From an uncultured Amaricoccus sp. (GTDB lineage: Bacteria > Pseudomonadota > Alphaproteobacteria > Rhodobacterales > Rhodobacteraceae): DNA of 12,055 nt. Below are positions 1 to 8,738 of the stretch, piece by piece; within the stretch, counting starts at the first letter, position 1, and each line of letters opens with the position of its first letter. The position numbers were made by a program, and so were the translations under genes. The notes under the pieces are model-generated. The model was not told the origin of the DNA, did not search any database, and saw only the letters and a list, made by a program, of their open reading frames with translations. The stretch spans positions 1-12,055 of the forward strand of contig NZ_CALLYO010000340.1 in assembly GCF_937858865.1 (NCBI RefSeq). Direction: 5' to 3'.

Positions 1-104
1 ATCGCCCAGACGCCCTCGATGAAGCGCGTCCCCTCCTCGGTCATCTGCACGCTCAGCCAGCGCATCATCGCCTGTGCCGCGGTGAGCCGGATCGTCTCCC
101 CCAT
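1..104 (-). CDS. iolD: Start of IolD, trihydroxycyclohexane-1,2-dione hydrolase (partial, runs off left edge)
   Basis: Only the first 34 codons are present; the gene continues beyond position 1. The N-terminus begins MGETIRLTAAQAMMRWL and continues through EEGTRFIEGVWA, which matches how IolD proteins begin. IolD is a thiamine-diphosphate enzyme that hydrolytically opens the ring of the diketone made from inosose, a middle step of cytoplasmic myo-inositol breakdown. None of the catalytic core is visible here, so the call rests on the N-terminal pattern plus context. The gene lies 20 bases downstream of the iolC stop on the same strand, as in many proteobacterial iol operons. A purine-rich GGGGGGAAAG lies directly before the ATG and serves as the ribosome-binding site. 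Confidence 0.85.
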   Translation of the reverse strand, partial: MGETIRLTAAQAMMRWLSVQMTEEGTRFIEGVWA

Positions 105-124: not shown

Positions 125-2050
125 TCACGCCACCGCCTCCCGCGCGGCCGCCCGCGCCTGGTCCCAGATCTCGCAGAGCCGGCCGTAGCGCCGCGCCATC
201 TCTGCCACCGCATCGGCATCGGTCGTCTCGCCCTTCATCCAGCCGCGCGCCACCGCGCCGAAGATCGTCCGCCCGACGGCGAAGCCCTTCACCAGACCGA
301 ACCCGGCCGCGGTCTCGAAGCTCGCGGCGAGCTCGGCCTCGGGCGCGTCGAGCCCGAGGACGACGATGCCGCGGGTGTGGGCGTCGTTCTCCTCGATCGC
401 CGCGATCGCGTTCGCCCAGCCGGCGCGCGCGGTCATCGGCTCGAGCTTCCACCAGTCGGGGAAGACGCCGGCGGCGTAGAACTGGCGGATCAGCGTCGCG
501 GTGGTCGTGTCGTCCACGGGACCGACCTTCGAGGGGATGATCTCGAGCAGGAACTCGAGCCGGTTGCGGCGCGAGGCCTCCCAGAGGCGCCTGACCGTCG
601 CCTCCTGCTGGCTGCGCAGCTCCGGCGTGTCGGACGGGTGGCAGAAGCAGAGCACCTTCACCACGTCCTCGCGCGCCCATTCGTGCAGCCCGCCGCAGTC
701 GGATCCGAGCTCGGGCTCCAGCGCCAGCGGGCGCGAGCCCGGCCATTCGCAGGGCCGGCCGATCCAGAGGCCGGAGCCCGAGGCCGCATGCAGCGCCGCG
801 CGGCCGAGGCGGCTGTCGCAGAGGATGCCGTAGCCGGGACGGCCGTCCGCCACCTCCAGAGCCGCCTTGAGGCAGAGCTCCTTGAAGGCGCCGATCCTCT
901 CCGGCGTCGCGCCCGCCATCTCCTCGAGCTGCAGCCGGTGGTCGAAGGCGAAGACCCGCATCTCCGACCAGTCGCCGCCGTGCTCGCGCTGGCGGTTGGT
1001 CGCCCAGTGCACCTGCTCGAGCGCGGGATCGTTGCGCAGGTCCGGCCGCACGACGCCGCGGGCGAGGAAGAACTCGAGCTCGGCGAGCGACGGATAGGCG
1101 GGCGTGCAGCCGTGGCGGGAGACCGCGAAGGCGCCGCAGGCGTTGGCGTATTCGAGGCTCGTCGGCCAGTCCCGGCCGGTCAGCCAGCCCCGCAGCAGCC
1201 CGGAGAAGAAACCGTCGCCGGCGCCGAGCACGTTGAAGACCTCGATCGGGAAGCCGGGGCCGGTCTGGCCGTCGTCGAGGCTGCCCGGGATCGCGCCCTC
1301 GAAGGCGACCGCCCCCCTGGCGCCGCGCTTGCAAACCAGCGTGGCATTCGAGACGGCCCGCACCGCGCGCAGCGCCGCGAGCGTGTCGGTCGAGCCGCCG
1401 GCGATGTGGAACTCCTCCTCGGTGCCGACGATCAGGTCGAAGAGATGCAGCGTCGACTGCAGCTTCGCCGTCACCGCCGCGCTCTCGACGAAGCGGCTCT
1501 CGCCCTCGCCATGGCCGGCGACGCCCCAGAGGTTCGGCCGGTAGTCGATGTCGAGCGCCGTCTTCGCGCCGTGCTTCCTCCCCAGCTCCAGCGCCTTCTT
1601 GACCGCCGCCTCGGTGCGCGGGTGGCTGAGGTGGGTGCCGGTCGCCAGCACCGCGCGCGCCTCGGCGATGAAGCCCTCGTCGATGTCGGCCTCGGTCAGC
1701 CCCATGTCGGCGCAGTTCTCGCGGTAGAAGATCAGCGGGAAGCGTTCGTCGTCGCGGATGCCGAGGATGACCAGCGCCGTCAGCCGCTCCGGGTCCACCT
1801 TGACCCCGCGGGTGTCCACCCCCTCGCGCGCCAGCTGCTCGAGGATGAAGCGGCCCATGTGCTCGTCGCCGACGCCGGTGATGACCGCCGAGCGCAGCCC
1901 CAGCCGCGCCGTGCCGCAGGCGATGTTCGTCGGCGAGCCGCCGATGTACTTCGAGAAGCTCCCCATGTCCTCGAGCCGGCCTCCCACCTGGTCGCCGTAG
2001 AGGTCGACCGACGAACGGCCGATCGTGATCAGGTCAAGCGTCTTCGTCAT
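125..2050 (-). CDS. iolC: IolC, 5-dehydro-2-deoxygluconokinase with C-terminal DUF2090 (aldolase-like) domain
   Basis: The protein has 641 residues in two domains. Residues 1 to about 325 form a PfkB-type sugar kinase: GGSPTN near 37-42 in the substrate-binding half, and NVLGAGDGFFSG at 273-284, where D279 is the expected catalytic base. Residues about 332-635 match DUF2090, which alphaproteobacteria and others carry fused to IolC. The usual database name for this form is bifunctional 5-dehydro-2-deoxygluconokinase/5-dehydro-2-deoxyphosphogluconate aldolase; the aldolase role is family knowledge and cannot be proven from sequence. The kinase phosphorylates 2-deoxy-5-keto-gluconate, and the aldolase step would yield malonate semialdehyde and dihydroxyacetone phosphate. 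The frame stays open upstream to 2605, but the start at MTKTLDLITIG fits the kinase N-terminus, and upstream residues are only a shadow of the neighbouring gene. A GGGGAA-type ribosome site precedes this ATG. Confidence 0.95.
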   Translation of the reverse strand: MTKTLDLITIGRSSVDLYGDQVGGRLEDMGSFSKYIGGSPTNIACGTARLGLRSAVITGVGDEHMGRFILEQLAREGVDTRGVKVDPERLTALVILGIRDDERFPLIFYRENCADMGLTEADIDEGFIAEARAVLATGTHLSHPRTEAAVKKALELGRKHGAKTALDIDYRPNLWGVAGHGEGESRFVESAAVTAKLQSTLHLFDLIVGTEEEFHIAGGSTDTLAALRAVRAVSNATLVCKRGARGAVAFEGAIPGSLDDGQTGPGFPIEVFNVLGAGDGFFSGLLRGWLTGRDWPTSLEYANACGAFAVSRHGCTPAYPSLAELEFFLARGVVRPDLRNDPALEQVHWATNRQREHGGDWSEMRVFAFDHRLQLEEMAGATPERIGAFKELCLKAALEVADGRPGYGILCDSRLGRAALHAASGSGLWIGRPCEWPGSRPLALEPELGSDCGGLHEWAREDVVKVLCFCHPSDTPELRSQQEATVRRLWEASRRNRLEFLLEIIPSKVGPVDDTTTATLIRQFYAAGVFPDWWKLEPMTARAGWANAIAAIEENDAHTRGIVVLGLDAPEAELAASFETAAGFGLVKGFAVGRTIFGAVARGWMKGETTDADAVAEMARRYGRLCEIWDQARAAAREAVA

Positions 2051-2088: not shown

Positions 2089-2892
2089 TCAGGCCCCGGC
2101 CCGCGCCGTCAGCTCCTCGGTCACATGCGCCATGCTCGCGCGGAGCGCGGCCTCCGGATCGGCAAGCTCGTGGACCTCCGGGGCGAATGGCTCGAAGCTG
2201 TACGGGCCATCGAAGCCGAGCGCGACGAGCCTGCGGATCTGCGGCACGTTCTCCAGCCGGTCGGCGGCGTCGACCAGCACCCGGTGCGGGTCGAGCATCG
2301 CCTCGACGGCGACGGCGGGATCGACAACGCCCGAGATGTGGACGAGGCCGGTCCGCTCCGGGAAGAACTCCGTCTCGCCGGCGAGACGGTGGTGGAAGGT
2401 GTCGTGCACGAGCCGGTAGACGTCGCCGCCGCCGGCCTCGTCGATGGCCTGCACCGCCTGCGCCTTGGTCCGCAGCGACGAGATCGGGAAGCCGAGCGGC
2501 TCGACGAGGCCGATGAGCCCGCGCTCGCGCAGGATCGGCGCCATCGCCTTCAGCGCTGCCACCAGATCGGCGTGGGCCACCCGGTTCCCATCGTTGAGCG
2601 GGCACATCACCAGCGCCTTCGCGCCGGCGGCCTGGGCGTAGTCGGCGAGCGCGCGGGCGCGGGCCGGCAGGTTGCCCGACCAGACGTTGAACGGATAGAG
2701 CGCGTTGACCGAGACGATCTCGACGCCGGCCTTTTCGGCCGCCGCCTTCACGTCCTCGGGCGCCACCGTGTCGACGACGTCGGGCAGGTCGTTGCGGATC
2801 TCGACCTCGGTCATGCCGAGCCTGCGGGCGAGCGCGAGGAAGTCCTCGACCGGGAGCTTCGGGGTGGCGATGTGGTTCAGGGCGAAGCGCAT
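2089..2892 (-). CDS. IolI-like sugar isomerase/epimerase (xylose-isomerase-like TIM barrel)
   Basis: This 267-residue protein is a single TIM barrel of the AP-endonuclease-2/xylose-isomerase superfamily, close in length to Bacillus IolI (about 278). Four metal-binding positions can be read at the ends of successive strands: E131 in LVEPLG, D164 in LVHDTFHH, H185 in LVHISGV and E234 in SFEPFAP. This is the Glu-Asp-His-Glu set of IolI, which interconverts 2-keto-myo-inositol and 1-keto-D-chiro-inositol. An inosose isomerase role is therefore likely, but other epimerases of the family share the set, so no gene symbol is given. It lies between iolG and iolC with short gaps (11 and 38 bases). The ribosome site TGAGGT overlaps the iolG stop codon, which suggests translational coupling. 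The frame is open further upstream, but that is a shadow of iolG. Confidence 0.85.
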   Translation of the reverse strand: MRFALNHIATPKLPVEDFLALARRLGMTEVEIRNDLPDVVDTVAPEDVKAAAEKAGVEIVSVNALYPFNVWSGNLPARARALADYAQAAGAKALVMCPLNDGNRVAHADLVAALKAMAPILRERGLIGLVEPLGFPISSLRTKAQAVQAIDEAGGGDVYRLVHDTFHHRLAGETEFFPERTGLVHISGVVDPAVAVEAMLDPHRVLVDAADRLENVPQIRRLVALGFDGPYSFEPFAPEVHELADPEAALRASMAHVTEELTARAGA

Positions 2893-2903: not shown

Positions 2904-3914
2904 TCAGTCGTAGAGCGCCGGGCGCGCCGGCAGCGAAATCGGAACGATGGTTCCCGGCGCTTCCTGCGCCGCGACGCATGCGTCCGACGAGATCGCCGCG
3001 ACGTAGCCGTCCCAGGAGGTCGGCCCGGTGGCGGTCCCCCTGGCGGCGGCGTCGAGGAAGTCCTGGAGCTCGACGTCGTAGCTGGCGATGAAGCGGTCCT
3101 TCCAGTCGGTCAGGATGGCGTTCTGCAGCTTCGCCTCCTTGCGCATGACGATCGACATCGGCTCGGGGAGGGAGGCGAGGCCCTCCTCGCCCACGACCTG
3201 GCACTGGATGTCGTAGCCGTAGCGGCAGTTCACGAACACCTCGACGTCGATGCGGATGCCCTTCGCCGTCTCGAGGAGGACGATCTGCGGGTCCCTGAGC
3301 TTCGCGTGCGAATGCGCGCTCGTGCGCGGGAACACCACCTGCGCCGAGACGTAGTCGTCGTCGAGCAGCCAGCGGAAGACGTCGATCTCGTGGATCAGCG
3401 TGTCGTGGATCGCCATCGGCGTGACGTACTGCTCCGGCACCGTCGGGTTCCGGTGCGCGGCGTGGACCATGAGGGGCCGGCCGATCTCGCTGTCGACGAC
3501 CTGCTTCAGCATCCGGTAGCCGGCGTCGTAGCGGCGCATGAAGCCGACCTGGACGAGGCGGCGGCCGAGCGCGATCTCGGCGTCGACGATGCGCTTCGCG
3601 CCGTCGGCGGTGGTGGCGAGCGGCTTCTCGCAGAAGCAGGGCTTGCCGGCGGCGAGGGCGGCGAGGACATACTGCTCGTGGCTCGCGCCCCACGAGGTGA
3701 CGAGGACGGCGTCGACCTTGTCCGAGGCGATCAGCGCCTCGCCGGTGGCGAAGATCTCCGCGTCCGGCGCGACGGCGGCCTGCACCGCCCTGGCGCCCTC
3801 GAGGTTGACGTCGGAGAGGGCGGCGATCTTCGCCCCCGCCAGCACCTGGTTGATCCGGCGGGCGTGGTCGCGCCCGATCGCGCCGGTGCCGATGACTCCG
3901 ATTCGAACGGTCAT
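2904..3914 (-). CDS. iolG: IolG, myo-inositol 2-dehydrogenase (Gfo/Idh/MocA family)
   Basis: This 336-residue NAD-dependent oxidoreductase would oxidise myo-inositol to 2-keto-myo-inositol (scyllo-inosose), the first step of the pathway. The N-terminal Rossmann fold starts [18 protein letters not shown], with the GxGxxG nucleotide loop at residues 9-14. The family EKP motif is at 96-98, placing the catalytic lysine at K97. D171 and H175 in HDTLIHEID correspond to the Asp-His pair (D172/H176) of Bacillus inositol dehydrogenase. The length is normal and no key residue is missing. The gene starts 10 bases after the stop of the chimeric gene and 11 bases before the IolI-like gene, so it is in the middle of one operon. 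Other dehydrogenases of the family share these motifs; substrate assignment leans on the iol context. Confidence 0.93.
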
Positions 3915-3924
3915 GTGTCTGATC

Positions 3925-4965
3925 TCACTTCCAGAACTTGTCGACGTAGCGCTGCATCTCGGCGCGCATGAAGCGGCCCGACGCGTCGGCCTTCTCCTCC
4001 CAGGCGAAGACGCAGGCGGTCATTATCCCGTCGAAGCCGATCTCGGCGAGCGTGCCGAAGAAGTCGTCCCACGGCACCTCGCCCTGGCCGATGTCGAGGT
4101 GCTGGTGGACGCGCGTCTGGGTGCCGGGCGGGTTGAGGATGTAGCGCAGGCCGGACGAGGCCTTGTGGTTGAAGGTGTCGCCGACGTGGACATGGGCGAG
4201 CACGTCGGCGCTCTCGCGCAGCATCACTGTCTCCGTCTTGCCGGCCTGCGACAGGCCGATGGCGCCGCCGTCGGCGTCCGTGGCGCTGGTCGTGATGATG
4301 CCGTCGATCGTGTCGTCCTGAAGGACCGTCGCCTTGATGGTCTCGGCGATGGCGACCCGGTCGCCGAAGGCGCTGCCCGGAAGCGGCAGCTTGCTGGCCG
4401 CGGCGCCCTTTGAGGCGGCGCCGTCGACGACGCCCTGGCAGCGCGCCTCGTGGTTGGCCGCCCCGGGAACGGCGGTGACGCAGACGATGTTCTTCGCGCC
4501 GTGCTCGCCGAAATACTCGCCGGCGGCGACGCCGGCGACGTATTCGTCCGACCCGACGTAGTTGATCGCGCCGAGCTCCCGGGCCTTGTCGATGGTGCCG
4601 GCGTTGATCAGGATCACCTCGATCCCGGCATCGACCGCGGCCTTGATCGCCTCGTCCTGCGCCTCGGGCACCCAGTTCGGGACCGCGATCCCGTCGACGC
4701 CCTGGCTTATCGCGGTGCGGACCAGCTGGGCGGCGTCCGGGCCGAGGTTGTCGTAGGTCTGCAGCTGCAGATAGCTCACCGATCCGCCCTGCTGCCCGAC
4801 GATCAGGGCGGCGTCGTCGAGGCCCTTCTTGATACGGTTCCAGAACTCGTCGTCCGTCTTGCCACCGACGACCGCGATGTTCGCGGCAAGCGCCGCCGGA
4901 GCACAGGCCGCCAGAACGGCCGCCAGGGTCAGCGAGGCTCGCGTGACGCGCTTGGTTTGATTCAT
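3925..4965 (-). CDS. Chimeric gene: secreted sugar-binding protein N-terminus joined in frame to the IolH C-terminus
   Basis: The 346-residue product joins parts of two unrelated proteins. Residues 1-27 are a clear signal peptide (MNQTKRVTR, a hydrophobic run, then AALA before ANIAVVGG). Residues 28 to about 240 are a periplasmic sugar-binding protein of an ABC importer (type I, inositol/ribose group): [53 protein letters not shown]. From about residue 248 ([14 protein letters not shown]) to the end, the sequence is IolH-like, a cytoplasmic TIM-barrel sugar isomerase/epimerase: [37 protein letters not shown]. The binding protein lacks its last ~60-80 residues and IolH lacks roughly its first two thirds, so neither part should fold normally. 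The join is near 4219-4260. GGAGGAA lies just before the ATG at 4965. The probable cause is a deletion that also removed transporter genes; an assembly error cannot be excluded. Confidence 0.85.
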
Positions 4966-4981
4966 GTCTTTCCTCCACCCG

Positions 4982-5000
4982 ATCTCGCTGCCGGCGAGAT
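4982..5000. promoter_or_regulatory. Perfect 7-bp inverted repeat in the leader of the inositol operon (candidate operator)
   Basis: ATCTCGC and GCGAGAT are perfect inverted arms separated by five bases (TGCCG), centred at 4991 and ending 17 bases upstream of the first operon start codon. The position suits either a repressor operator or a short leader hairpin. The adjacent divergent LacI-type gene makes an operator the more attractive reading, but the site does not match a known consensus that I can recall. Confidence 0.35.
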
Positions 5001-5021
5001 TCCTGTTTCGCGAGTTGTTCT

Positions 5022-5042
5022 GTATCATCAGTCATGCGATAC
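5022..5042. promoter_or_regulatory. GTATC-N11-GATAC dyad in the lacI-type/inositol operon gap (candidate operator)
   Basis: The gap 4966-5120 separates the inositol operon from its divergent LacI-type gene and must carry both promoters. Within it, five-base arms GTATC and GATAC form a 21-bp dyad with an unmatched centre. To its right, 5061-5095 is the most AT-rich stretch of the gap (CATAATATCTCAATATAT), the likely promoter core. On the minus strand GTTTCA and TATGCT with 17-bp spacing form a weak promoter-like pair. Operator identity is inference. Confidence 0.3.
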
Positions 5043-5120
5043 CAGAACGGCGGAGTGACGCATAAGAGCATAATATCTCAATATATCCTTGAAACGATGA
5101 CACAGTGCGGAGATGTTCCG

Positions 5121-6155
5121 ATGAACCGACCGACGATCGCGGATCTGGCGAAGGCGGCCAATGTCAGCGTGTCGACCGTCAATCGCATTCTCGCCGGTTC
5201 GGCGTCCGTCCGAACCGCCACCATTCAGCGCGTCCAGAATGCAGCAGACGAGATCGGCTATTACGGGCTCGGGACCATCGAGGCGCGAAAGCAGGAATCG
5301 ATGCCGAGCTACCGGCTCGGATTCCTGCTCCAGCAGTCGACCCGCGAGCTCTACCAACTCATCGGCCAGAAGATTCGTGAAGCGGCGGCCGGCTGGCGCG
5401 ATGCGCGGATCGACGCGGCAGTCGAGTTCGTCGACCACCTCGAACCGGAGAACATCGCGGCACGGCTGAAGACGCTCGGCCGCGCCTGCGACGCCGCGGC
5501 GGTCGTGGCCGGGGACCATCCCCTGATCGGACAGGCGATCCAGGCGCTCAGGCACCAAGGCAGACCGGTCGTCGCCTACATCACCGACCAATCCGCCTCC
5601 GAGCGCGCGGGCTATGTCGGTGCCGACAACTGGAAGCTCGGCCGGACCGCCGCCTGGTTCATTGCACAGACCACCTGCCACCCCGGACGGGTGCAGGTCC
5701 TCATCGGCAATCACAGATACCAGTGCCAGGACATCTCGGAGGCGAGCTTCCGATCGTACATGCGCGAGCACGCCGGCCACCTCGGCATCGAGGACAGCCT
5801 GCCGACGCACGAGGAGCCGAAGGAGGCGCATCGCCTCATCTCGAAGCTCCTGGCCGAGAGAGATGACCTCGCCGGTGTCTATGTCGCCGGCGGGGGCATC
5901 TCCGGCGTCCTGCAGGCCGTACGCGAGGCGCCCGAGGAACGCCGCCGCCGCCTCCGCGTCGTCTGCCGGGACATCGGCCCCGAAACCCGCCGCGGCCTCG
6001 CCGAAGGCCTCATCACCGCGGCTCTCTGCCATCCCCTCGAGCGGACGTCGGACCAGCTCATCCAGACGATGATCGACGCGATCAGGCAGACCAACGACGG
6101 CGTCATCCTCCAGCGCACGCTCCCCTTCGAGATCATCACGCCCGAGAACCTGTGA
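5121..6155 (+). CDS. LacI-family transcriptional regulator, probably controls the inositol operon
   Basis: The protein has 344 residues, the normal LacI-family length. Residues 4-24 form the DNA-binding helix-turn-helix (TIADLAKAANVSVSTVNRIL), followed by a hinge-helix region around 45-60. Residues about 62-340 are a periplasmic-binding-protein-like sensor domain of the sugar-responsive type, with YVGADNWKLGRTA and GVYVAGGGISGV as typical segments. The sensor suggests induction by a sugar or cyclitol, and the divergent position next to the inositol operon makes an inositol-related ligand the best guess. The start at 5121 has GGAG eight bases upstream; an in-frame ATG at 5097 is possible but adds eight residues before the conserved N-terminus. 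The name IolR is not used because that symbol covers unrelated families elsewhere. The gene ends tail-to-tail with the dehydrogenase at 6210. Confidence 0.9.
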   Translation: MNRPTIADLAKAANVSVSTVNRILAGSASVRTATIQRVQNAADEIGYYGLGTIEARKQESMPSYRLGFLLQQSTRELYQLIGQKIREAAAGWRDARIDAAVEFVDHLEPENIAARLKTLGRACDAAAVVAGDHPLIGQAIQALRHQGRPVVAYITDQSASERAGYVGADNWKLGRTAAWFIAQTTCHPGRVQVLIGNHRYQCQDISEASFRSYMREHAGHLGIEDSLPTHEEPKEAHRLISKLLAERDDLAGVYVAGGGISGVLQAVREAPEERRRRLRVVCRDIGPETRRGLAEGLITAALCHPLERTSDQLIQTMIDAIRQTNDGVILQRTLPFEIITPENL

Positions 6156-6209: not shown

Positions 6210-8657
6210 CTAGCCCCTCAGCGCCGCCGCGCGCGGATCATACATCGGTGCGAGGGACGCCTCCGCTGCGCAGACCCGCCCGGCGACATCGATGGCGTAG
6301 GTTGACGCGAGCAGCTCGTCCGCGCCCTCGCCGGGCGTGCAAGGCACGTAGCCGAGGCCGACCGCTCCCCCGAGGGTGTGTCCGTAGTTGCCGGAGGTGA
6401 TATGCCCGACGATGCGGCCGTCGCGGAGGATCGGCTCGCCGTGGAAGAGCAGCGGCCCGGGGTCGGCGAGGCGGAACTGCACGAGGCGGCGGGAGAGGCC
6501 GGCCTCGCGCCTGGCGAGCACGGCATCGCGGCCGATGAAGTCGCCCTTGCCGGTCTTCACCGCGAAGCCGAGGCCGGCTTCGAGCACGTGATCCTCGTCG
6601 GTGATGTCGTGGCCGAAGTGACGGAAGGCCTTCTCGATGCGGCAGCTGTCCATCGCGTGCAGGCCGCAGAGCCGGAGGCCGAGCTCCTCGCCCGCCTCCA
6701 CCAGCGTCTCGAAGACATGCGCGGCCTGGTCGGTGGAGACGTAGAGCTCCCAGCCGAGCTCGCCGACGTAGCTGACCCGGTGGGCGCGGGCGATCCCGAG
6801 GCCGATCTCGATCTCCCGGGCCGTGCCGAAGGGGAAGGCGGCGTTGGAGAGGTCGTCGGGCGAGACGCGAGCGAGGAGGTCGCGGGAGCGCGGGCCCATC
6901 AGCGGCAGCACCGCCTCGCCGGCGGAGACGTCGGTGACGACGGCAGCAGCGTCGCCGAGGTGGCGGCGGAGCCGGCTCAGGTCGCGGTGCAGGGTCGCGG
7001 CCGGGACGACGAGGAGAAAGGCGGTCTCGGCGAGGCGGGTGACGGTCAGGTCGCTCTCGATCCCGCCCCGGTCGTTCAGCATCTGGCAGTAGACGATCCG
7101 GCCGATGTCGACGTCGACGTCATTGGCGCAGAGCCGTTGCAGGAACGCGAGCGCGTCGCGCCCCTCGACCCGGATCTTGCCGAAGGACGACATGTCGAGG
7201 AGCCCCACCCCCGCGCGCAGCGCCATGTGCTCGGCCCGCTGGTTCGCGAACCAGTTCGGCCGGCCCCAGGTGTAGCGGTATTCCGGCGCCTGCCCCGGCT
7301 CGGCGAACCAGTTGGCGCGCTCCCAGCCGGCGGTCTCGCCGAAGACGGCACCGCGGGCCTTCAGGTGCTCGTGCAGAGCCGAGCGCCGGATGCCGCGGGC
7401 GCTGGCCATCTGGCGGTAGGGAAAGTGGTCGGCGTAGAGCAGGCCGAGGGTCTCGGTGACCCGCTCGCGCAGGTAGCGGCGGTTCCTCTGGAACGGCTGC
7501 GCCCGACGGATGTCGACTTCCCAGAGGTCGAAGGGCGGGGCGCCGTCCTCCATCCAGCGGGCGAGCGCCATGCCGGCGCCGCCGGACGAGACGATGCCGA
7601 TCGAGTTGTAGCCGGCGGCGACCCAATAGCCGCGCAGCTCCGGCGCCTCGCCGAGGTAGTAGCGATCGTCCGGCGTGAAGCTCTCGGGGCCGTTGAAGAA
7701 GGTGTGGATGCCGACCTCGGCCAGCATCGGCATGCGGTGGATCGCCTTCTCGAGGATCGGCTCGAAGTGGTCGACGTCCTCGGGCAGCTGGTCGAAGCAG
7801 AAGTCCTCGCGGATGCCGTCCATACCCCAGGGCTTGGCCACCGGTTCGAAGGCGCCGAGCAGGATCTTGCCCGCGTCCTCCTTGTAGTAGGCGCACTCCT
7901 CCGGCACCCGCAGCACCGGCAGCCGCTCCAGCCCCGGGATTGCCTCGGTGACGATGTAGAAATGCTCGCAGGCGTGAAGCGGCAGGGTGACGCCATTCCG
8001 GGCGGCGATCTCGCGGCCCCACATGCCGCCGCAGTTGACGACATGCTCGGCGGCGATATGGCCGGTCTCCTCGCCGCGCTGCCAGTCGACGCCCGTCACG
8101 CGACCGTTGGTGGCGGTGACCGCGGTCACCTTCACACCCTCCGCGATGCGGGCACCACGCATGCGGGCACCTTTCGCGAGGGCGAGGGCAACGTTCGCCG
8201 GGTCGGCCTGTCCGTCCTTCGGCAGGTGGACGCCGGCGACGACGCCGTCGATGTTGAGGTGCGGGTACATCGCCTTGACCTCGGAGGGCGAGAGCGCGTT
8301 CACCTCGACGTCGAAGGCGCGCGCCATGGCGGCGAGGCGGAGGATCTCCTCGCGCCGCTCGGACGTCAGCGCCACCGTCATCGAGCCGCACTGGCGGAAG
8401 CCGGTGGCGAGGCCGGTCTCCGCCTCGAGCCGGGCGTAGAGATCGGCGGAGTATTTGGCGAGGCGGGTGCGGTTCTGGCTCGCCTGGAGCTGTCCGACGA
8501 GACCGGCGGCATGCCAGGTGGTGCCGGAGGTGAGCTGCTTGCGCTCGAGCAGGACCACATCGGTCCAGCCCAGCTCGGCGAGGTGGTAGGCGACGGAACA
8601 CCCGGAGATCCCGCCGCCGATGATGGCGACGCGGGCGGACGCGGGCAGATCGGCCAT
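6210..8657 (-). CDS. FAD/folate-dependent dehydrogenase of the dimethylglycine/sarcosine dehydrogenase family
   Basis: This 815-residue protein has the full architecture of the family. An N-terminal FAD-binding DAO domain occupies residues 8 to about 370, with the dinucleotide loop GGGISG at 14-19. An FAO central segment follows, then a GcvT-like folate-binding domain (about 425-700) and its C-terminal barrel (about 715-805). TSGTTWHAAGLVG contains H49, at the position where rat dimethylglycine and sarcosine dehydrogenases bind FAD covalently. NDRGGIESDLTVTRL at 528-542 is a typical GcvT segment. These enzymes oxidatively demethylate N-methylglycines and pass formaldehyde to tetrahydrofolate. 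The exact substrate (dimethylglycine, sarcosine or a related N-methyl compound) cannot be told from sequence. The chosen start at 8657, MADLPASARVAIIGGG, places the Rossmann strand at its usual distance and has GAGG nine bases upstream. It is divergent from an XRE-cupin regulator, its likely controller. Confidence 0.88.
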   Translation of the reverse strand: MADLPASARVAIIGGGISGCSVAYHLAELGWTDVVLLERKQLTSGTTWHAAGLVGQLQASQNRTRLAKYSADLYARLEAETGLATGFRQCGSMTVALTSERREEILRLAAMARAFDVEVNALSPSEVKAMYPHLNIDGVVAGVHLPKDGQADPANVALALAKGARMRGARIAEGVKVTAVTATNGRVTGVDWQRGEETGHIAAEHVVNCGGMWGREIAARNGVTLPLHACEHFYIVTEAIPGLERLPVLRVPEECAYYKEDAGKILLGAFEPVAKPWGMDGIREDFCFDQLPEDVDHFEPILEKAIHRMPMLAEVGIHTFFNGPESFTPDDRYYLGEAPELRGYWVAAGYNSIGIVSSGGAGMALARWMEDGAPPFDLWEVDIRRAQPFQRNRRYLRERVTETLGLLYADHFPYRQMASARGIRRSALHEHLKARGAVFGETAGWERANWFAEPGQAPEYRYTWGRPNWFANQRAEHMALRAGVGLLDMSSFGKIRVEGRDALAFLQRLCANDVDVDIGRIVYCQMLNDRGGIESDLTVTRLAETAFLLVVPAATLHRDLSRLRRHLGDAAAVVTDVSAGEAVLPLMGPRSRDLLARVSPDDLSNAAFPFGTAREIEIGLGIARAHRVSYVGELGWELYVSTDQAAHVFETLVEAGEELGLRLCGLHAMDSCRIEKAFRHFGHDITDEDHVLEAGLGFAVKTGKGDFIGRDAVLARREAGLSRRLVQFRLADPGPLLFHGEPILRDGRIVGHITSGNYGHTLGGAVGLGYVPCTPGEGADELLASTYAIDVAGRVCAAEASLAPMYDPRAAALRG

Positions 8658-8702
8658 GGCGGAGAACCTCAGGGGCGAGTCGGGACAGCGTGAGTGAACA
8701 TC

Positions 8703-8738
8703 TTTTCGTGAAAATATCAACTAAAATTTCATTAGAAA
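8703..8738. promoter_or_regulatory. AT-rich promoter/operator region with two TTTC...GAAA dyads
   Basis: In an otherwise GC-rich genome, 8700-8745 is strikingly AT-rich. It contains TTTTC-GT-GAAAA at 8703-8714 and TTTC-ATTA-GAAA at 8727-8738, two short dyads sharing TTTC/GAAA halves and centred 24 bases apart, roughly two helical turns. It lies between the divergent dehydrogenase and XRE-cupin genes, so cooperative binding by that regulator is a reasonable inference. No known consensus was matched. Confidence 0.4.

Follow-up and report, generated by a model that had tools for sequence, protein, structure and literature searches.

The 12,055 bp window, which is the entire contig C340 of the draft genome of an uncultured Amaricoccus sp. 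(G000; 3.62 Mb, 651 contigs, 92.58% complete), was found to carry a single open reading frame made up of the first three quarters of a sugar-binding protein (SBP) followed by the last third of IolH, an unrelated protein of inositol breakdown. The genes on the two sides of this frame belong to two different operon types, here designated A and B, and a second contig of the same genome, C606, is mixed in the opposite sense. The evidence leans modestly towards two redundant operons having been rejoined crosswise, such that an in-frame relic was left and iolG-iolI-iolC came to lie behind the type-A promoter. The features of the window that bear on this reading are as follows.

3-104, minus strand: start of the next gene, which runs off the contig as an open-ended frame; putative iolD, judged by eye.
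125-2050, minus strand: iolC-type kinase with DUF2090 (NF047869, 696 bits, above the cut-off of 600; the start is an estimate based on the domain match).
2089-2892, minus strand: isomerase of the type-B right half, presumably iolI, a name given from position (80% identical to the Amaricoccus genome G005; no NCBIfam match at 1e-15).
2904-3914, minus strand: iolG, type B, intact (NF052679, 527 bits, just under the cut-off of 540; 84% identical to G005).
3925-4965, minus strand: chimeric ORF of 346 aa, SBP-A N-part and IolH C-part (ORF list and Pfam, two incomplete domains).
3928-4224, minus strand: IolH tail, residues 248-346 (DNA match to C606 iolH, 3' tree).
4219-4225, minus strand: junction, GATGCTG (comparison with C606 iolH and with the SBP genes of relatives).
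4225-4965, minus strand: SBP-A part, residues 1-247, with a signal-like N-terminus judged by eye (Pfam, homologue alignment).
4966-5120, between regulator and chimera: putative divergent promoter region, read by eye (GGAGG ahead of the ATG at 4965).
5034-6155, plus strand: divergent LacI-type regulator, type A (LacI, PF00356; start probably at 5121, an estimate).

The regulator shares, for example, 71, 66, 55 and 72% identity with its counterparts in the loci L032, L033, L034 and L054. Elsewhere in the window, the minus strand at 6210-8720 encodes a large protein that combines an FAD-dependent oxidoreductase with a GcvT-type folate domain (Pfam DAO, FAO_M, GCV_T and GCV_T_C), which by reading would be of the dimethylglycine/sarcosine dehydrogenase type.

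The chimeric frame is open from the ATG at 4965 to the stop at 3925-3927. Its residues 30-247 match Peripla_BP_4 (PF13407; E 5.9e-25, 88.7 bits against a curated cut-off of 35.1), but only over profile positions 1-211 of 258, while residues 241-335 match AP_endonuc_2 (PF01261; E 1.2e-14, 55 bits against 31.1) over positions 165-248 of 249, so that this TIM-barrel domain is likewise incomplete. In an alignment the chimera keeps step with nine SBP homologues up to about residue 249 (VML, shared by seven of the nine) and then diverges. The nearest SBP-A homologue among the matches listed is P0002, a protein of 325 aa with 93% identity across 72% of the query. Against the rhizopine SBP model NF052284 the chimera scored 103.2 bits and the intact P0002 158.4 bits, both under the cut-off of 420. 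A stop codon within an SBP stretch, in the frame of the match, was seen in a Rhodobacteraceae MAG (L064:10001-10666).

The second part of the chimera belongs to IolH, a xylose isomerase-like TIM barrel (a JGI name carried by relatives, e.g. P0126). The last 97-105 residues are 83-91% identical to named relatives and 95% to the C606 protein, but the ORF retains just the final part of the barrel, downstream of a signal-like N-terminus. Window positions 3931-4225 match the 3'-end of C606 iolH at 285 of 295 bases, and nine of 99 codons differ, seven of them synonymously, one as Thr/Ala and the last being the final codon. The two tails are sisters in the 3' tree (support 99/89). The join was placed at 4224/4225, immediately past which the window and C606 diverge. 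The window reads GATGCTG from 4225 to 4219, as does C606 iolH, and ATGCTG stands at the matching place in one of the nine relatives' SBP genes compared (L044). A microhomology of 6-7 bases at the join is therefore a possibility rather than a finding, because the SBP side lost from this genome is out of view. The original prediction of an in-frame chimera of two unrelated proteins, switching near 4219-4260 with the frame kept, is thus confirmed by the single open frame of 346 aa, the two partial domains of different Pfam families, the homologue alignment and the match to C606 iolH; the join falls within the predicted range.

The operon context was mapped by tblastn over 79 named loci, the best kept of 150 matches, of which L075 is, judged by its length, the contig of G005 itself. 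Type A has the order divergent LacI, SBP-A, one or two permeases, ATPase and iolH, sometimes a distant iolG, then Gfo2, iso1 and often iso2, and the binding protein-permease-ATPase-iolH order expected in relatives is thus the usual one of this type. Type B has the order LacI, SBP-B, transporter genes, iolH, iolG, iolI and iolC, and iolH is common to both. The labels iolI, Gfo2, iso1 and iso2 were assigned in this analysis; the NCBIfam scores liken iso2 to IolE (154.7 bits, under the cut-off of 290), and iso1 matches no model at 1e-15. An iolH gene of over 75% identity was present in 75 of the 79 loci and missing from four, and 12 loci resisted typing on at least one side. In all 63 loci typable on both sides the left and right halves agree (42 A-A, 21 B-B, none mixed), with thresholds for calling the halves that were set after the locus table had been viewed and with many close kin (Rhizobium, Paracoccus) included, so that these are not 63 independent observations.

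The iolH gene itself behaves differently from its neighbours. Its product is 84-92% identical to the C606 protein in the 75 loci regardless of operon type, and trees built from 38 hand-chosen loci of the 75 together with two same-genus loci (5' tree, 600 columns and 41 rows; 3' tree, 291 columns and 42 rows) do not separate the types. It may be, judging from the sequences compared, that iolH moves between operons by recombination, unlike the surrounding genes, which sort by type. An attempt to type iolH as A or B and so place the breakpoints failed since neither tree sorts by type, and the breakpoints are for this reason locatable only to intervals: between 4225 and 3914 in the window, and between the end of the ATPase gene and the start of iolG on C606.

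Against this background the window has a type-A left half (regulator and SBP) and a type-B right half (iolG, iolI and iolC). A type-A operon is represented there only by the regulator and the N-terminal part of the SBP, and no single stretch holds the type-B operon, its right half being on the window and its left half on C606. The latter contig is the mirror of the window: its LacI, SBP, permease and ATPase are of type B (84, 90, 93 and 93% identical to G005) and stand as an intact set directly upstream of a full-length iolH (L006:10811-11713, plus strand), whereas the genes after iolH are of type A. The type-A iolG on C606 (L006:11714-12060) is broken and keeps about the first 20 and the last 90 codons; about 660 bases net are missing, out of frame (661 in comparison with L095, 658 with A. 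solimangrovi, G002). The spacer between ATPase and iolH is 114 bases on C606 and looks unlike the 38-base one of G005, though such spacers evolve fast.

The type-A pieces differ in their closest relatives. The window SBP is 60-76% identical to most of the rhizobial loci listed first, 76% being the best, and 62 and 55% identical to two SBPs of A. solimangrovi, while Gfo2 and iso1 of C606 are nearest, among the loci compared, to a Reyranella MAG (L095:10051-11499; 92 and 93%), a closeness that by reading points to horizontal transfer or to a misbinned contig. The type-A pieces of the window and of C606 may, from these identities, come from two different A operons. In composition both contigs lie inside the range of 22 other contigs of G000, as does the contig of G005, and the measure thus gives no discrimination within the genus. 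In A. solimangrovi the contigs C81 and C102 share a 112-base stretch of 99% identity behind two different type-A SBP genes, at the contig ends (L125:13423-13534 and L126:4312-4423), which suggests a duplicated block where the assembly broke.

A simple deletion within one ordinary operon, as first proposed, finds no support here, because the two sides of the join belong to operon types never mixed in the typable loci. The proposed removal of the permease and ATPase genes is borne out so far as their type-A copies were not found in G000, a 92.6% complete genome, where the best matches were 32 and 42%, respectively; the L032 permease is 52-91% identical to its counterparts in 16 other loci and the L032 ATPase 73-86% to those in 15. 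The SBP-A C-terminus was not found elsewhere in G000 either, other matches to P0002 reaching at most 33%. As the genome is incomplete, these absences are no proof of loss.

The suggestion of a strain without ABC inositol uptake of its own found no support, in view of the intact LacI-SBP-permease-ATPase set on C606. Across the two contigs one transporter and one iolH (C606) and one iolG (window) are intact, and therefore inositol uptake has probably not been lost. That this transporter would carry inositol is deduced from operon context; its SBP reaches the cut-off of no NCBIfam model, the best being galactose/glucose MglB (147.8 bits against 420). By gene set, not by sequence, the type-A genes can be likened to the IbpA-IatA-IatP system, in which an inositol-binding protein of Alphaproteobacteria is combined with a permease and an ATPase. 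This ABC transporter of Caulobacter and Sinorhizobium is described as co-regulated with the iol genes, and in-frame removal of most of ibpA in Caulobacter as abolishing growth on inositol (PMC2597717). As there described, IbpA-IatA-IatP is intact and needed for growth on inositol, whereas the SBP-A of G000 is cut short and fused, and the searches of this genome found neither its permease nor its ATPase. The same account of ibpA concerns loss of the binding protein without a second transporter, whereas G000 has a second transporter.

Crosswise rejoining of two operons, the reading to which we incline, would start from an Amaricoccus-type alphaproteobacterium in which operons A and B, both of inositol type, were redundant. 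After breakage of the two, their halves would have been exchanged, by direct end-to-end joining or via the shared iolH with a later deletion. In one product, the window, the type-A regulator and promoter and the opening 247 codons of SBP-A would lead into the final third of an iolH and the type-B iolG-iolI-iolC; in the other, C606, the type-B regulator, SBP, permease and ATPase would be followed by an intact iolH and then by the right end of type A. The losses would comprise the permease and ATPase genes of type A, the 5' part of one iolH and the greater part of one iolG, with another copy of each function kept. This reading is favoured because both contigs of G000 are mixed and complementary where all the typable relatives are unmixed, and because the type-A permease and ATPase and the SBP-A C-terminus were not found, the type-A iolG on C606 is broken and the two iolH tails are sisters. 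Ku is encoded in six of the 11 genomes of the genus, G000 included, and therefore end joining would have been available. On this reading the joins would be present in the cell. A single reciprocal event is only one option for the window and C606, since the A pieces may come from two A operons.

Chimeras arising from in-frame deletion or rearrangement, like relics of pseudogenes, occur in bacterial genomes. The present ORF resembles them in that two unrelated genes are fused and the fusion was not seen to be conserved; it differs in that its two parts derive from a pair of redundant operons, the complementary halves of which lie on a second contig.

An artefact of assembly or library preparation, already raised by the original prediction, is the main rival and a real possibility, if short of an even chance. 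Paralogous operons sharing iolH would then have been misjoined, with the genes for the type-A permease and ATPase left on fragments that were not assembled or not binned. The evidence comes from a single draft genome of 651 contigs and 92.58% completeness, and the presence of three odd joins on just two short contigs arouses suspicion; a reciprocal exchange of halves at a gene common to both operons has the typical look of a misassembly, and the join is in none of the other relatives among the matches listed. The A. solimangrovi contigs also end right behind both type-A SBP genes, and another ends inside iolH, and therefore the region seems prone to misassembly in the genus. The absence of changes at conserved positions of the retained SBP, described below, is equally compatible with an artefact and with a recent event. 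However, there is no long repeat at the join: the sequences of the window and C606 part immediately beyond it, and their iolH tails, at 97%, represent separate copies. For a misjoin in a de Bruijn graph some 20 shared bases or more are required, and assembler k-mers are longer than the possible shared stretch of 6-7 bases. A chimeric library molecule or a scaffolding step could nevertheless have produced the join. A pilot survey of broken genes, comparing 396,600 bases of G000 (10,349 of them N) with 1,213,833 bases of G005, gave only 30 ortholog pairs: 16 full, four cut by contig ends and ten partial, of which three are on the window or C606 and several perhaps derive from ORF starts set too far upstream; the result is too weak to draw on.

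Two more specific accounts of the rearrangement are each held as improbable, though not negligible. The first, which forms part of the probability given to crosswise rejoining and comes near to the original proposal, is homologous recombination inside iolH to give a hybrid operon with an A left and a B right half, followed by one in-frame deletion of the SBP-A 3'-end, permease, ATPase and iolH 5'-end. The high identity of iolH across the types, unsorted in the trees, suits this route, as does the type-A gene order, which is what the deletion would span. An undeleted hybrid, however, was seen in none of the 63 typable loci, and, judging from the 114-base against the 38-base spacer, the break on C606 may precede iolH. 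The second, likewise tentative, is a reciprocal non-homologous exchange between redundant cyclitol operons (an inversion or replicon fusion, assisted by Ku), then complementary loss leaving one transporter, one iolH and one iolG across the two hybrids; the chimera would be kept as a leader and the B genes placed under the type-A LacI regulator, a regulatory rewiring.

The existence of a conserved SBP-IolH fusion family found no support in the protein matches listed or in plasmid records. A protein spanning the join was represented only by the window's own among the best 120 of 2569 matches in a search with the full-length protein, and again among the best 120 of 2235 matches with residues 205-300 as query. 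None of the 320 plasmid records matching by protein, and none of the 152 matching by DNA, had one place covering 80% of the query. A search of solved structures with the chimera matched the SBP part only, and among the titles found by a literature search none was on this locus. Several candidates were set aside. The Microbacterium locus L058, which matched query residues 29-339, proved to be two separate adjoining genes; P0121, P0128, P0184 and P0196, with IolH and Gfo/Idh domains and without an SBP, look by reading like frameshift-joined iolH-iolG frames; and the listing of P0001 on two contigs was not counted as an independent sighting, as the C606 IolH (P0122) is likewise listed on two and both may reflect one assembly entered twice. 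P0128 reads through an iolH-iolG gap that resembles the one in the window.

As for the product, positions at least 95% conserved in 119 SBP homologues were examined. In the retained part (residues 28-247) none of the 88 such positions is changed, which says little because 72 of the 120 rows, the window counted, have none changed, while 28 are missing with the lost C-terminus. The AlphaFold2 model, built on a shallow alignment of 36 rows, has a mean pLDDT of 70.0 and a pTM of 0.59, with means over ten-residue blocks of 63-97 for residues 21-250 and under 50 in seven of the ten blocks thereafter. Given the lost conserved positions and the poorly modelled tail, together with the absence of two thirds of the IolH barrel, the chimera is predicted most likely to be non-functional both as a binder and as an isomerase. 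A functional secreted fusion with a new role is very improbable: the reading frame has been preserved together with its start codon and ribosome-binding site, and no conserved position of the retained SBP part is changed, but the join is known from a single genome among the matches listed, the 28 SBP positions and most of the barrel are absent, and the tail is poorly modelled.

The remaining role of the ORF would likely be that of a translated leader coupling the type-B catabolic genes to the type-A promoter. A good ribosome-binding site precedes its start, and its stop lies 10 bases ahead of the iolG start. Ribosomes starting at the SBP start codon would run in frame to this stop, and since the frame is kept they could pass from the type-A promoter start to iolG without an early stop, although a kept frame is expected by chance one time in three anyway.

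Real or artefact, the joins give no ground for listing the chimera as a novel secreted fusion protein. Should they be artefacts, the case warns that paralogous operons sharing one conserved gene can yield convincing in-frame chimeras in draft genomes. If they are real, the two contigs would represent a snapshot of two redundant operons collapsing to one working set, with the catabolic genes placed under another regulator.
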